Of a stretch of 64,000 nt of DNA, positions 3,001-11,211 are shown one piece after another (the stretch's first letter is position 1; each line of letters begins with the position of its first letter). Below the pieces are notes generated by a model. That model made no database searches, was not told the DNA's origin, and saw only the letters and a list, made by a program, of their open reading frames with translations. Location: contig OY365815.1 of assembly GCA_959347315.1 (NCBI GenBank), positions 14,861,459-14,925,458 of the forward strand, in the 5' to 3' direction. Source of the DNA: Bimastos eiseni. Taxonomy: Eukaryota; Annelida; Clitellata; Crassiclitellata; Lumbricidae. A program made the position numbers and the translations under genes.

Positions 3001-3395
3001 CCAGTCAAAGATCAGAGTTCTCGGTTTTCCTCCTGTTTTTTTCTCCCTATTTTACCTTCAGTGACGTTTCATAGTAGGGGTCCCCCCTTAGTATGTGTCC
3101 AATTCATCTCCTTAGTCGTTCCCTTATATATTGTCTTCATCAGTGATCTGGACGATGTAGAAATTAATTCATGTTGCTTTCTTTTGATCTGATGTTATAG
3201 AGCCGATTAGTATAAGATGAGGAAAAAGGAGTGCATTACCATCTAAGATACAATTTGAACCTCGCTCGGCTTGACATTTCTGGAGCCTGTTCTGGCATTG
3301 AAACGGATAAAGCTGTAGGGTCGGCGTATAAGCTGGTCAACCTGACGTGGCTTTTCTGTGAGTTAGAAACATTTCTTTCCAGGCTTAATACTTAC
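1..3395. other. No gene seen
   Basis: ORFs here are short, lack splice context and resemble no family. It holds the hAT-like end at 1644 and several TAGGCCTA motifs. A distal promoter or 5' exon of the 3396 gene could lie near its right end. Confidence 0.6.
1644..1730 (+). mobile_element. One end of a hAT-like element related to family 1
   Basis: CAGTGATGTAGTCTCGAGACC followed by more GTCTCGAGAC palindromes looks like a hAT terminus with the same subterminal motif as family 1. No matching right end or target duplication was found, so it is a truncated copy. Confidence 0.5.
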
Positions 3396-5194
3396 ATGGA
3401 TGTTGGAAGAAGGATGGAAGAAACGGACAGAGACGAGCGGAGAGAAACAGCTGGAACACGTAAGCCAGGTACGTCTAAGAATAGCAACGAGACGAAGAAT
3501 CTGAGGACAAGCGAAGAATTAATTCGAATCTCAAGAGACATAGCAAAGGCAAACAAAAACATCCGTCGACTGGAACACCATCTCGCTGAAGCTATGGGTG
3601 AGATAGATCAACTGAATTACAAACTGAGGGCTGCAAATGAGTCTAGGATAAAAATTGGTGATGAGATTAGGCAATATCAAGATGAGATAGAACGCCTAAC
3701 GGCAGCACTAATTAAAGCACGAGGAATCTGTTATGAGGCGACACTTTCTAAGAATCTGCAATTGGTGGATACGTCAGGAGTGGCAATGACAAAAGAAACT
3801 ACAGTTTTTGATGGTAAGATGTTTAGGCACGCTTTCTAATGGATAAGCTGGAAATAGCTTTATCATGTCTAAGGCAGTAATAGATGTTCATTTGTAAATT
3901 ACGCATTCGGAAACACCATTTAAGCTAAGCTCCTAGATTGAGCAGTGGCCACGTGCAAAGCAGTGGCAACCAGAAGGCCCTTGGAGACCGAGCGGAAATT
4001 GCAACTTAATTAGAATTTACTCGGATATTTACCAAAAGTCTGTATCATCACAAGAACTTTACAATCTATATGTAATTGATGAATTCTATATATTTGTGTA
4101 GTCGCTGTACCAAAAACATATGTACACTGTGTCCATCCATAAAAATGCATAAATCCCATTTAATATCTGTCCCCCAAGGTAACAAACAGATTTTTCACCT
4201 CTGACAACCACAAACTACAATCTATTATTACGAACCTATCCATTAACGACATTCAATACATTTGGCAGTTGGAACAATTTTTTTAACTATCGTCATATTA
4301 ATAGAGGCGCTTTTTGATTTAGATTTAGATGACTGTAAGACCACTTATATCGAAGGATTCCGGACTACAGATGTTGAGGTCAAGGGAGTTGCATTGCTTG
4401 GAAACGTCATCTACGTTCTCTGTCAATCATTATTCGAAGGCTGCCACATCCGTGTCTTCGATAACAAAACTTTCAATTTTAATCTGATAAAAGTTATAAA
4501 ACTGCCAAATTGTGTGGATCCTTATGACTTGTCCGCCGACCCTGAAGCTCAATGTCTGTACGTATCGGATTGTTGGGAGACCTTTTTCCATCACGTCTGG
4601 AAGGTAACAACAGAAGACGACCAGGTTACCGAATGGGCAATGTTTGAAAACAACTTTACTCTCTCCGTTTCACTCTCCGGGCATGTATTGATACTCTACC
4701 AATTCGGAAACAATCAATCTCACCTCCACGTTAGGCTATCAACTGGAACGACATTGCACACATATAAACTACTGCATGAAAAATCCGAGACTCCGCTTGC
4801 GATAGTCGAGACTTCGAACAGAAACTTCATAATAAGCTATACAGTTTATTTAAGTTATAATTGTTGGACTTGGTGTATATATAAAATGAATGCAGACTGT
4901 CAGATCACTCGTCGTTTTACCCCTGGAGACGACCCCTCACAATGTCTGTACCATCCACGATACCTTTTCGTCGATTCCTGGGATCGGGTGATAGTTGCCG
5001 ACTCTGGAAGTAATCGAGTGATTCTCTTGAATCCCAATCTCAACTGGAATGGAGTATTACTGAAGAGAGGGTCATTCGTGATTGGAGAATCTCCAAGACC
5101 ATTCCTCTACGACAATCGCACAAACCAGATTTTCATCGGACCAAGCCATGATGAAGTTCAACGAATTGACGTGTTTACTTTGAAACTTAGGTAG
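3396..5194 (+). CDS. Coiled-coil plus NHL-like beta-propeller protein (two-exon model)
   Basis: Exons 3396-3813 and 4305-5194 join in phase 1 (GATG|GTAAGA donor; acceptor after ATTAATAG) to give about 435 residues. Residues about 39-110 are charged with heptad-like spacing (EELIRISRDIAKANKNIRRL onward), so a coiled coil. Residues about 145-435 look like the NHL-type propeller that invertebrates carry on many TRIM-like proteins: blade motifs include CLYVSDC and VIVADSGSNRVILLNPNL. No RING or B-box is visible. The neighbouring gene at 6111-11211 ends in the same kind of propeller, so the pair are probably tandem paralogues. Function unknown; such propellers bind protein or RNA. The ATG is the first good one after a possible acceptor (TTTCCAG) at 3382, so a further 5' exon is possible. 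Confidence 0.72.
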
Positions 5195-6110: not shown

Positions 6111-9100
6111 ATGGAGTCGAAAGGCGACCCAAGCTTCCAGTTACCACCTTTGGTGAGTTTAAACATAGTGTATACACCAATCATCCTAAGACTGTTGCAT
6201 TGTATTTAAATATTTCTATAACACCTCTCCCAGTTGCACATCAAATGTGGAAATAGACAAGTAAGAAATTGTGTTAAATGTGGTGAGCAAGTAAAGATTA
6301 TTCTCGACTTTGTCATTAGTGATATCTCATCCTAATTTCCGGCAGAAAGTTTGCAATCCGACATTTGGCGAAGCTGCTGTGGTGAATTTAAACTTGGATT
6401 GAACATCAAATTCTTATTTAAGTTTATGTTATACAGCATTTTCAATTAGACAAGTGAACTGCGAACTGAAGTGAGGTGAACCGGTTACATTTGTTATCTA
6501 CAGTAGTGCTTGTTGGATCTCTTCCTTCATCGTGACCCGAAATCATACAATCCTGCTTTCGACGGGATTTTGAAACCATCGTTCTAGAATAAAGTATTCT
6601 GTAACTACAACGTCGCTCCCTTAAACTGCATTTTAAGTTTCACCAGACACCTTCTGCGTCATTACTGTGCATGTGAAAGACACACTACGGTTTTACTAAT
6701 GCGTCATGGTGATTTAGTTAGGTTTGTTTTGGGCTAAAAATCGTGACCGTGTCATAGAGAGTTGAATATCGGGCTACCATTATTCGTTCACGGGACCTCT
6801 AATGCATCGATTCAAACGTTGAGAATGTAACCTAAATACCTAATAACTGCTTTAAATTGTCAGATTTTAACTGGGGCGGGTAAAACATTCCTGCATATCC
6901 GGATGTCCCGACTAAAATTTCTTGCCTACCTAAACCTGGTAGCCTCTATAGGCCTACGTGCTAAGTTGTAGTGGATGTAAATGCGCGGTAACCTACTCGA
7001 TTCTTAGTAACTAAACAAGTAATCTGTTTTATATTGAGCGCCTGTGTTTAAGCGGTACCTTAGAGGCGCTATAGAAATATGTCAATACAATAATAATACT
7101 AATAAACGGGAAACAAACGCCTAACTGTACAACAATACGGAAGCACCGATGGCTTTGTTTTTCTGTGGATGTTCAGGCCTGTGTGTTTCTCAGCCAGCTA
7201 CCAGATGTGATATTAGAACGGGTTCTTCTTAAAGCCTGTCTTCTCCAGAGTAATTCACTGACTACTGAGGATCTTCTTGCACTGGCTGCGGTTCACTATG
7301 ACTGGTATCACCAACTGAAGAACAAAAGGCTGCACCAGCAGATAAAGCGCCACATGGCAGGTGAATAAATTGTGACTGGTTCTATTTTGCAAATCTGTGA
7401 GAATGTTTAGAGCAATTTCCTTTCAAATAGATTGATCTAATAACATAATGTAGTCTAGCTTAACTATTTTATTCGTTTGTTTCACTTGAGAATAATGTAT
7501 ACATGTATTTAAACAACTATTTTGAGATTTAAAAGACACACACACACTTACATATATATACCTGCACCTCTCTCAATTGAGAAAGGTGTAGGTAAGAAAC
7601 AGTGATGTAGGCCTAGAAGTTGGTGATCGTAAGACAGAGCCTTGAGCAATAGGCCTACTATAACATTGATTCGGAGGAAGGGCACAGGGAGAACTTTATA
7701 TAAAATAATTGCCTCAACGACTCCTGATACGACTCTTGATATGCTCTGAACCAAAATGAAGAAAAAAATAATCGATGTTCCTTTAGATACAACCACACAA
7801 CGTTTTTGGTCTTTATCTCAGTGGCGATGACACTTGCTACTAGACGTACAGAAGAGCAATAGTCGACTACCCTAGAAGAAGATGCATATTCTTACATACA
7901 AACATGAGGCCCGCTAGAACCAAAAGTAAGCCTGGAGGTTTGTGCTGTAGGCATTGCGTATGAGTGCATCAACTCTCTGATCGAGTCAATCTGTAAATAC
8001 AATTCTAAGTAAAACTTCCGAAATCATACGCCTTAGGTATCCTACATGTGCAGCTCATTGTGCGCTAAAATAAAGTGGTAGATCACTCGTGAAGTGCTTT
8101 AGTTTGAATGAAGAAACTTCAGCTACCTCAAAGCATCACTACACTAGCTTTGCTTCAGCTTATCAGATGATTACCATGGTTGATCTTTCAATAAAACCTA
8201 CTTGGGTATGACATTCTTTGCAGCCCAGGAACGCGTATTTCATTGCCGAAAACATACGATCAGAAACAATCAGAAGTACTTAATTGAAAGCATTCGACCA
8301 GTGGCGAAGGTTGATCTTCTACTAGAAGGCGCCGCTCCTGCAAGAGAAAGAGACCTCATCGATCGCTTGCATGATGCCAAATGTCTCTCCGATAAACAGG
8401 TCAGAATCGTCAGAGGGCGAAATCAGAGATCGAGAGACGTGAACAAAGAACTCCTGAAAATCGCACGATTATTCAACGGGACGCAATACGCTATGTTTGT
8501 TGAGTGTCTACGTCAGACCTACCAAATGACGTCAGCCGATGTATTGGAACGAGGGGGAGGTGGGTTGCAGCCACTGGTTTATATGTATATGGTTACAGCT
8601 TATTATATGGGTTGCGCTTTGTGAGATCCTGCTCGGCTGGGACAGAGGCTGCAGTGTTTTTTGGAGAATCAGCCGTGGGCGTTGCTGGGCTCTTGGGGCC
8701 TTCCCAAAGTTTCAGTCAATCAATCCAATATTTTTTAGTGATTTTTAGTTATCGTAAGTGGTTTACATAGTTAAAGCTTGTTTGAAATAGGCCTATTTTT
8801 GATAGAAACTGACTGTTTTCATACCTGCACTCTATAAACTATACTCTCGTTGTAAGCTCTTTCGACAAAGCGAGCAAGAACCGAATTCTTTCTCATCCGC
8901 ATGCCTGTTATATCCCTTTGCTTGAATAAGGTAGAGATTCTTACCGCTGAAGTAAATACAATGTATTGCCTGTGTGATATGTACAACAGCTAGAAACTGT
9001 GATGCAAAGTTAAGTTTCGTGTATCTTTTACTTTGCAGTTGCGGTTGAGATGAGATTGATCCTCACAAAAGAATCCAAACGGTTCACTGAAGAAATTATC

Positions 9101-11211
9101 TTATCCATAAATAAAATCCGAGATAAGATGCTTCCCCAAAAGAAGGAATTTGAGGAGCTGATTATCCAGATAATGGTTCACGAAATCGAAATTCTCGGTG
9201 CACAGAAGACGAACAGGGACATGGTTGTTGTATGGCTGTGGTGTCATTCGCCAGAAAGTCTCTCCAGACTCAGGGAATGGAGTGTTCCGATCGGCCATCA
9301 ACCTAGCCATCTCTTTGGTATTACAGAAAGACTTGTCAAAGTGATTTCACAAACCATTGTTCTGAAGAAGTTACTCATTGAAGAGAAACAGTTGCTGCAA
9401 GATGTTTGTGAGTATGATTCTTTACATTTGCGTCTATTACTTGCACTTGTAAGCTTACATTTATATAGCGCCTTTTGGTATAACCTACGAGAGGCGATAT
9501 TCGAATTGAAAATACATAGACATGATAAAAGTTAGTAATAATAGACTACAGTATTTAATTATCAATATGACGTTTTAAATTATTTGTAGTATTTCTTTTG
9601 ATACAATATAAAACTAGTTAGTTGATTACGAGGTACAACTACTACCAAATTACAAATCATAATTTTACTTGGAGCAAGTTATTTCAATTCCAATTTAGTA
9701 TCTTTCGTAAATTTGGTTCTATACCTCCATCGCGTATACAGTATGACTGTATGCGTATATTATCAAGATGCAAAACCTTTTGAGTTTTTATTGATTGCGT
9801 CGTTTGAGATTTGCTTTTTGGTCCTCTGTGCCTGTTTCATTTATCTTCTTCAACAGTTTATTCGATGACAACAGACACCAGCTTCTGTTCGGAACTTCAG
9901 TCACAAATTTTAGCCTCATAACCATTTTCTTGTCACAATAATCTAGCCATGGTTTAGTCGAGAGCGCAGCTTTGCAGATGTCTAAAGAGACACTATATGA
10001 ATCCTCCTAATGAATAAATACAAATGAATAAGCATGTCTCGCCTTATGCAATAATCTTGGTTAATTCTACATTTTTCATCCGTAACGGACGAATAATGTA
10101 GAATTAACCGAGATTATCACAGTTTTAAAGGCACATTTTTCTAACCAAACTGAGGTTGAAAATAAAGCTAAGGGCAGTTTAGTCTTTAATATAGAATTTA
10201 ATTTCGTTGCCTTGTTTAAAATTCGCTTCTTATTTGTTTATTCTGAATATTGGTTATAATAAGTATGCCGGCTGTTAACATCTTGTTTCAGCTATTTGTC
10301 CGATTCCCATTGAAATCAAAAAAATTTGGAACATTCGTGGAAAAGAGTTTTATGGAGTGGTTAAGGTAAAGAACATGATTTTTATCCTCAGCCAAAAGCC
10401 AAAATTAATACAAATCTGTAGCGAACGACCTCCGTTTGATCTCGTGAAAAGCGTTGAGATTAAGAAAATCCAAAATCCTCGCGACATGACGGCTGGTCCA
10501 GACTGTCTCTATATCGTGGATAAGTCGAGCAACAAAGAAGTCAAAAGTGTTTCGAAAATCATATTTGAGTCTGAAGATTTTGCTCAACACAGAGTCTTGC
10601 GTTGGTTGCCAAATATTAAAGAGAATTTCGTGCTCTCGTCGTGCAAGGATGGCAGATTGTTGCTGATGAAGCACAGTCAGCCACCGACCTTGGAAATTTA
10701 TGGGTCAAGGACGCCAGACAACGATCAGGCCAGTCTGGAACGTACGATTAACTTGGATAAAGATTTCTGTCCCTTGCACCACGCCATTGAGACGGGGAAC
10801 GGACATTTTGTCGTCAGCCACTATTCAGCCAACAGTTCCCAGTGTTTTATCAGTGAGATAAATCAGTCAGGACAAATTGTTCGTCGTTTCTACGCCAGAG
10901 ATGACGCACAGCAAATGTTTGCAGATGCAGTTGCTGTGGACTCTCATGGCCGGGTGTTTGTGGCTGACAGGAACAACAGTCGGGTAGTTATGTTAGATTC
11001 TCAGCTGAAGTGGATTCAGGTCGTACTCACAGCGACTACGGATGGTCTCACGGATCCGTGTTCACTATGGTACGATGACAATATGAAGCAGCTGATTGCA
11101 GCACAATCTTACACATGGAAGGTACGTTCTTCTTCCTCTACCAGTCCAGTTACAATGGAACCAGCAATCTACGTGGTTAGCAATCCTAATCTTTCCAAGG
11201 AAACGTTGTGA
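6111..11211 (+). CDS. F-box-like / CARD-like / TRADD-N-like / NHL-propeller modular protein
   Basis: Five exons fit in phase: 6111-6152, 7177-7360, 8224-8559, 9039-9407, 10292-11211 (617 codons with stop). Exon 2 (residues about 15-75) looks like an F-box: LSQLPDVILERVLLKACLL, then LLALAAVHYDWYHQLKNKRL. Exon 3 (about 76-187) looks like a CARD/death fold: ESIRPVAKVDLLLEGA, then RLHDAKCLSDKQV and YAMFVECLRQT. Exon 4 (about 188-310) starts with charged helices and then VVVWLWCHSPESLSRLREW, resembling TRADD-N-type domains. Exon 5 is an NHL-like propeller (FADAVAVDSHGRVFVADRNN). Introns 2-4 are all phase 1 and lie between domains. The last exon could instead end at a donor after 11121 (GAAG|GTACGT). 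The 6111 exon is preceded by CAG, so the true start may be further upstream. The domain calls are pattern recognition; a ubiquitin-ligase or immune adaptor role is inferred. Confidence 0.75.
10050..10118. repeat. Short inverted repeat / hairpin
   Basis: The arm ending TTGGTTAATTCTACATT and its complement beginning AATGTAGAATTAACC pair over about 34 bases with about four mismatches and almost no loop. It lies in the last intron of the F-box/CARD gene and may be a palindromic micro-transposon. Confidence 0.75.

Follow-up and report, generated by a model that had tools for sequence, protein, structure and literature searches.

Does one gene of Bimastos eiseni (Lumbricidae) join an F-box-like start, a death-fold segment, a TRADD-N-like segment and an NHL-type beta-propeller in a single protein, and does such a protein stand alone? 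The question is raised by a stretch of 64,000 nucleotides on contig OY365815.1 (assembly GCA_959347315.1, positions 14,861,459 to 14,925,458 of the forward strand), referred to below as the window, in which five exons had been predicted to splice in phase into 616 residues. We found that the predicted five-exon gene looks real from its exon structure, and we give about an even chance to the reading that its product is an intracellular sensor or adaptor from a large, lineage-expanded family with the order F-box-like domain, CARD, exon-4 domain and NHL propeller.

The five-exon gene and its tandem copies

The exons lie on the forward strand at positions 6111-6152, 7177-7360, 8224-8559, 9039-9407 and 10292-11211 and join in frame into 616 residues followed by a stop codon, with no internal stop and with a GT donor and an AG acceptor at 4/4 introns, so that the coordinates, reading frame and splice sites of the original prediction were all confirmed. 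The lengths of the first four exons (42, 184, 336 and 369 bases) give a phase of 0 for the first intron and of 1 for the other three, and exons 3 and 4 are therefore symmetric 1-1 modules. Exon 1 contains the start codon and 14 residues and ends in phase 0 at a GTGAGT donor; its length and donor are the same in four array copies. An AG site just 5' of exon 1 suggests, by reading only, that a further 5' exon may lie upstream.

Five further copies of the gene (A, B, B2, C and D) were located within about 90 kb on the same contig, which is labelled C10 in the genome-wide counts below, and two of them are damaged or partial. The lengths of exons 1-4 and the GT-AG sites recur in four of these copies. 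Three of the four, A, C and D, also keep a reading frame that is open over 623 residues, and the other, B, retains all exons with a frame change in exon 5. Copy B2 consists of exons 3-5 only within the 14 kb fetched. Over 8.9 kb, C and D share 99.6% identity, and this pair is read as a recent tandem duplication.

The damage in B and B2, together with the stops present in some exons of the wider family, would fit a window copy that is itself a decaying or silent duplicate. Against this, the window copy has an uninterrupted reading frame and undamaged splice sites, and its ratio of nonsynonymous to synonymous substitution rates (dN/dS) relative to copy A is low in exon 2 (0.38), exon 4 (0.21) and exon 5 (0.34), and we regard decay as quite improbable. 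Exon 3 gave 0.87 in the same comparison and is thus little constrained there.

The array belongs to a much larger family

Distant relatives of the propeller exon were found on contigs C7, C15 and C14 of the 660 Mb genome (118 contigs), and on all three a CARD relative and an exon-4 relative lie upstream. Relatives of exon 2 lie upstream of the C7 and C15 propellers, the array profile picking up the C15 one only weakly (E 0.035); exon 2 was not found at the C14 relative within the fetched stretch. Whole-genome searches with the exons of the C15 member yielded at least 157 CARD, 152 exon-2, 150 exon-4 and 178 propeller matches. These counts include pieces of single exons, and all genome counts are lower bounds. 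The linkage counts took in 150/157 CARD, 150/152 exon-2, 150/150 exon-4 and 137/178 propeller matches; second pieces of split matches are among the propeller matches left out, and two of the CARD rows come from a single place. A further stretch, L049, consists mostly of N and was uninformative.

Complete same-strand quartets of exon 2, CARD, exon 4 and propeller were present at 74 of the 150 listed exon-4 relatives, with a median span of 7 kb. These 74 quartets have no exon in common, no other listed exon-4 relative lies within any of their spans, and none is on C10. Among the other listed exon-4 relatives, 16 had exon 2 and CARD, 10 CARD and propeller, 11 CARD only, 21 propeller only and 18 no partner; members may be missing from incomplete quartets through partial match lists, long introns or real loss. 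The reverse exon order occurred at 0/150, and the opposite-strand control gave a CARD upstream in 0 and a propeller downstream in 3 of the 150. Of 49 propeller rows from the genome search that revealed the array, 23 have a CARD upstream. Family members cluster on several large contigs, and the array reads as a minor branch within a far larger animal gene family. The original prediction, which took in one protein, held as to the gene, and that protein is one member of a family with at least 74 colinear copies elsewhere.

A chance gene model was ruled out because exon lengths, phases and colinearity are conserved, and the same conservation leads us to reject the idea that the exons belong to separate genes. 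The specific alternative that the F-box-like exon is part of a separate upstream gene draws on the fact that the linkage between exon 2 and the CARD is spatial. However, exon 2 ends at a phase-1 GT here and in two distant relatives, and an exon-2 relative lies upstream on the same strand within 10 kb in 116 of the 150 CARD rows listed, as against 2 rows with one downstream and 5 with one on the opposite strand, which makes a separate gene very improbable.

Searched against proteins, the 616 residues had no match at E <= 0.001 among 7997 candidates. The same search with the C15 relative returned 39 proteins, and the 10 of them that were inspected are propeller-only and so say nothing on architecture.

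Exon 3 encodes a CARD and exon 5 an NHL propeller

Exon 3 (8224-8559) carries the death-fold segment, a CARD in which about 16 residues specific to the subfamily are inserted behind the first helix. Scanned alone, exon 3 of the window copy scored 22.8 bits against a Pfam CARD cut-off of 23.9 (E 9.2e-5), just under the threshold, and the C7 relative was likewise below it (21.5 bits). Copies C and B2 and the C14 and C15 relatives were above it (24.9-37.4 bits), including copy C at 32 bits (E 1.3e-7) and the C15 member at 37.4 bits (E 2.6e-9). The insertion after the first helix probably lowers the CARD score in the window's subfamily. A single-sequence AF2 model of the exon has six helices with a mean predicted local distance difference test score (pLDDT) of 62, and its top Foldseek matches are the CARDs of caspase-1, Apaf-1 and NLRC4, with probabilities up to 0.99. 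The family profile of exon 3 matched in the PDB one designed protein and then the CARDs of BCL10, cIAP1, caspase-9 and NOD1 (E 0.04-0.1), and a profile from the array copies alone gave no meaningful PDB match. Two observations weigh against the assignment: the Foldseek E-values are 0.2 or higher, with the TNFR1 death domain among the first ten matches, and in the Pfam scan of the full 616 residues NHL alone passes, the CARD being among no listed matches. Taken together, the CARD originally predicted for exon 3 is well supported.

Exon 5 (10292-11211) encodes the beta-propeller and the stop codon, and its predicted NHL identity is solid. One repeat of the window copy passes the Pfam NHL cut-off (22.8 bits against 20), and the exon matches solved propellers in the PDB, namely designed Pizza propellers, PknD and the NHL propellers of TRIM2, Thin, TRIM3, TRIM71 and Brat, with a best E of 7.6e-13. 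This part of the original prediction was borne out. Apart from PknD, these natural relatives have RNA and developmental roles, which would favor a TRIM-NHL-like regulator that binds RNA or protein, for example in development, uses its N-terminal modules for oligomerization only and is not immune. We consider such a regulator unlikely, since a Pfam scan of the 616 residues found no RING or B-box at E up to 10, the CARD is a signaling death fold, and the family looks like an immune expansion in its size and its tandem arrays.

Exon 2 resembles an F-box in the window's subfamily

Exon 2 (7177-7360) ends in phase 1 and encodes the F-box-like domain (LPDVILERVL...EDLLALAAVHYDWYHQL). In the window copy it scored 17.9 bits with the Pfam F-box-like model against a cut-off of 24.3, and 12.2 bits in the full-length scan. 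Pfam F-box scores ranged from 17.9 to 21.1 bits across the subfamily exons, copy A being below its cut-off at 21.1, and copy B passed the cut-off of PF00646 by 0.3 bits (20.8 against 20.5). When aligned with hhalign to eight F-boxes of the same genome, a profile of the subfamily plus two relatives scored 27.4 against 18.4 for the best of 200 shuffles (0/200 as good), and a profile of the subfamily alone scored 25.4 against 17.1 for the best of 100 (0/100 as good). The match in the subfamily spans 43-46 columns. Exon 2 of the wider family is clearly homologous to that of the subfamily (0/100 shuffles as good).

Several results count against extending the F-box assignment to the wider family. 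Its exon 2 matches the F-boxes locally over the first helix only, the LPxExL helix, with a probability of 12% and 1/100 shuffles as good, and globally with a probability of 2% and 0/100 shuffles as good. A profile in which the window copies were out of register gave 5%, with 1/150 shuffles as good, and was superseded by the separate profiles. The core tryptophan of the F-box is absent from 10 of the 24 exon-2 sequences compared, and in the alignment a loop is inserted between helices 1 and 2. The Pfam scan of the C7 and C15 members gave no F-box match, and a PDB search gave no match for either exon-2 profile, that of the array copies or that of the family. These same features favor an alternative in which exon 2 is an N-terminal helical module derived from or resembling an F-box and the protein is a CARD-propeller sensor without a ubiquitin link; it is opposed by the subfamily match, which covers 43-46 columns and lies above all shuffles, and by the score of copy B. 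We regard this alternative as a minority prospect that deserves to be kept in mind. As an F-box, exon 2 is fair in the window's subfamily and weak or marginal in the wider family, and the original assignment is retained to that extent. For the window's subfamily, a link to SCF (Skp1-Cullin1-F-box) is a possibility that stays unproven.

Exon 4 encodes a divergent domain

The TRADD-N domain that had been predicted for exon 4 fared less well. Exon 4 (9039-9407) encodes a divergent domain that is TRADD-N-like by sequence pattern: in an alignment judged by eye, the order of strands and helices would fit the RRM-like beta-alpha-beta-beta-alpha-beta fold of TRADD-N. Neither the window copy nor the array copies nor the C7 and C15 relatives gave a TRADD-N match in Pfam or any meaningful Pfam or PDB match. 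The family profile did not match TRADD in the PDB, and the AF2 model is useless (pLDDT 43, no strands); both results weigh against the overall reading of the family.

In TRADD-N, a Gly-Ser (uS) turn between strands 2 and 3 is strongly conserved, with cysteine as a tolerated substitute, as described in the text of PMC8195603. The corresponding place in exon 4 was set by alignment with a GHS-bearing sequence. Among eight aligned members it is occupied by threonine in five and by cysteine, methionine (the window copy) and glycine in one each, with no preceding glycine, and most exon-4 relatives have Gln-Thr there. One match to PF20694 (TRADD-like_N) is listed in the genome; it lies in another ORF (open reading frame), read as NCOA6-like, and the similarity of exon 4 to it does not exceed that of shuffles (58/150 as good). 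Compared with a possible TRADD-N exon beside the C7 member, exon 4 scored above 150/150 shuffles, with a probability of only 14%. The identity of exon 4 as TRADD-N is therefore unproven.

Two sequences deserve mention. An ORF upstream of the C7 member (L046:1650-2138) has a more canonical TRADD-N look with a GHS turn and no TRADD-N match in Pfam. An exon-4 relative at C13:24809675-24810004 lies inside an ORF of 1817 residues, far longer than the other listed ones.

A putative sensor coupled to death-fold signaling

By analogy with F-box/propeller substrate receptors, with CARD sensors and with the death-fold/TRADD-N/propeller expansions in the literature (discussed below), recognition probably falls to the propeller and signaling to the CARD. 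The propeller would bind a variable ligand, which could be a microbial or self protein or RNA, and ligand binding or clustering would allow the CARD to recruit a CARD partner such as a caspase, a BCL10-like protein or similar. The exon-4 domain might serve as an additional surface, of adaptor or switch type. At the N-terminus, the F-box-like domain may couple the complex to Skp1-Cullin1, in which case the bound target or the receptor itself would be ubiquitinated.

The sensor-plus-CARD part of the explanation falls slightly on the probable side, and a working SCF link is doubtful. A sensor or adaptor of innate-immune type is the most likely kind, and the clustered expansion would match what immune receptor families often show. 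The stronger proposal is of a new class of intracellular receptors in animals, represented by 74 or more colinear copies beyond the array, in which a single polypeptide couples a variable propeller directly to CARD assembly and to ubiquitination of SCF type; we rate it as less likely than not.

The substitution rates cut both ways: the dN/dS ratios of the window copy relative to copy A, low in most exons, favor the overall explanation, and the following figures count against it. The propeller dN/dS is about 0.35 in 4/5 informative array pairs, and the comparison of the window copy with B2 gave 0.86, rising to 1.46 in the last third; in exon 3, dN/dS exceeds 1 in two array-copy pairs, with few changes. 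The figures carry no significance test, and diversifying selection of the propeller therefore cannot be claimed.

Neighboring features

Two ORFs precede the gene on the forward strand. The first (3216-3836) is coiled-coil-like and outside the gene, with weak matches that are all below cut-offs. The second (4247-5191) encodes another, distantly related propeller and has its own stop before exon 1. Relatives of this upstream propeller ORF, 80-94% identical, stand ahead of copies B, C and D, which suggests that two genes make up the repeated unit. The remainder of the window (21479-56671) holds unremarkable gene fragments: LIM (21479), KY-type Ig-like (31129), radial spoke 3 (37237) and C2-set Ig (56249). 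An Rfam search of the window gave no match at gathering score. Elsewhere in the genome, six full-length mitochondrial COX1 copies are present on C4, C5, C6, C15 and C16, which are large and presumably nuclear, besides C118, a COX1-bearing contig taken as mitochondrial. The COX1 of C118 makes sense when translated with invertebrate code 5, in which AAA is Lys, AGA is Ser and ATA is Met, and on this ground an echinoderm or tunicate source was considered unlikely.

Comparison with known systems

The protein shares features with three known architectures. Like the TRIM-NHL ubiquitin ligases (TRIM2, TRIM3, TRIM71, Brat and Thin), it ends in an NHL propeller that is likely the recognition part, and unlike them it has an F-box-like domain and a CARD in place of RING and B-box. 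F-box/WD40 substrate receptors of SCF (the FBXW proteins) combine an F-box with a C-terminal propeller, and the predicted protein likewise starts F-box-like and ends in a propeller; it differs in the CARD and exon-4 domain between the two, in an NHL rather than a WD40 propeller and in the divergence of its F-box. Apaf-1 has the architecture CARD-NB-ARC-WD40 and thus also pairs a CARD with a propeller, its CARD being among the top fold matches of exon 3, whereas the 616 residues gave no match to a nucleotide-binding domain.

The original prediction knew of no described protein with this order, and we likewise found no F-box-CARD-NHL protein in the titles and abstract openings among the matches listed from the open-licence literature. 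If the F-box-like end binds Skp1, an expanded invertebrate receptor set would combine target recognition, death-fold signaling and SCF ubiquitination within a single chain. If it does not, a large CARD-NHL family is still added to the known invertebrate death-fold expansions, and it supplies defined genes for asking whether such expansions are immune receptors.

The closest general plan is that of the large death-fold/TRADD-N/propeller expansions of marine invertebrates, which are read as immune systems in PMC8195603, an example being the Branchiostoma DED-TRADD-N-WD40 proteins (PMC8195603). Both have an N-terminal death fold, a small domain and a C-terminal propeller, and both are large lineage-specific expansions. 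The family described here differs in having a CARD instead of a DED, NHL instead of WD40 and an extra N-terminal F-box-like exon, and its exon 4, unlike the TRADD-N of those expansions, is without the Gly-Ser motif. Since fusions of TRADD-N to a TRIM ubiquitin ligase and to polyubiquitin are in print (PMC8195603), a ubiquitin link has precedent; the words F-box and NHL are absent from the main text of that paper. The ingredients and the general plan are known, and, as far as the listed titles and abstract openings show, a CARD, an NHL propeller and an F-box-like start would together form a new combination among the invertebrate death-fold/propeller expansions.

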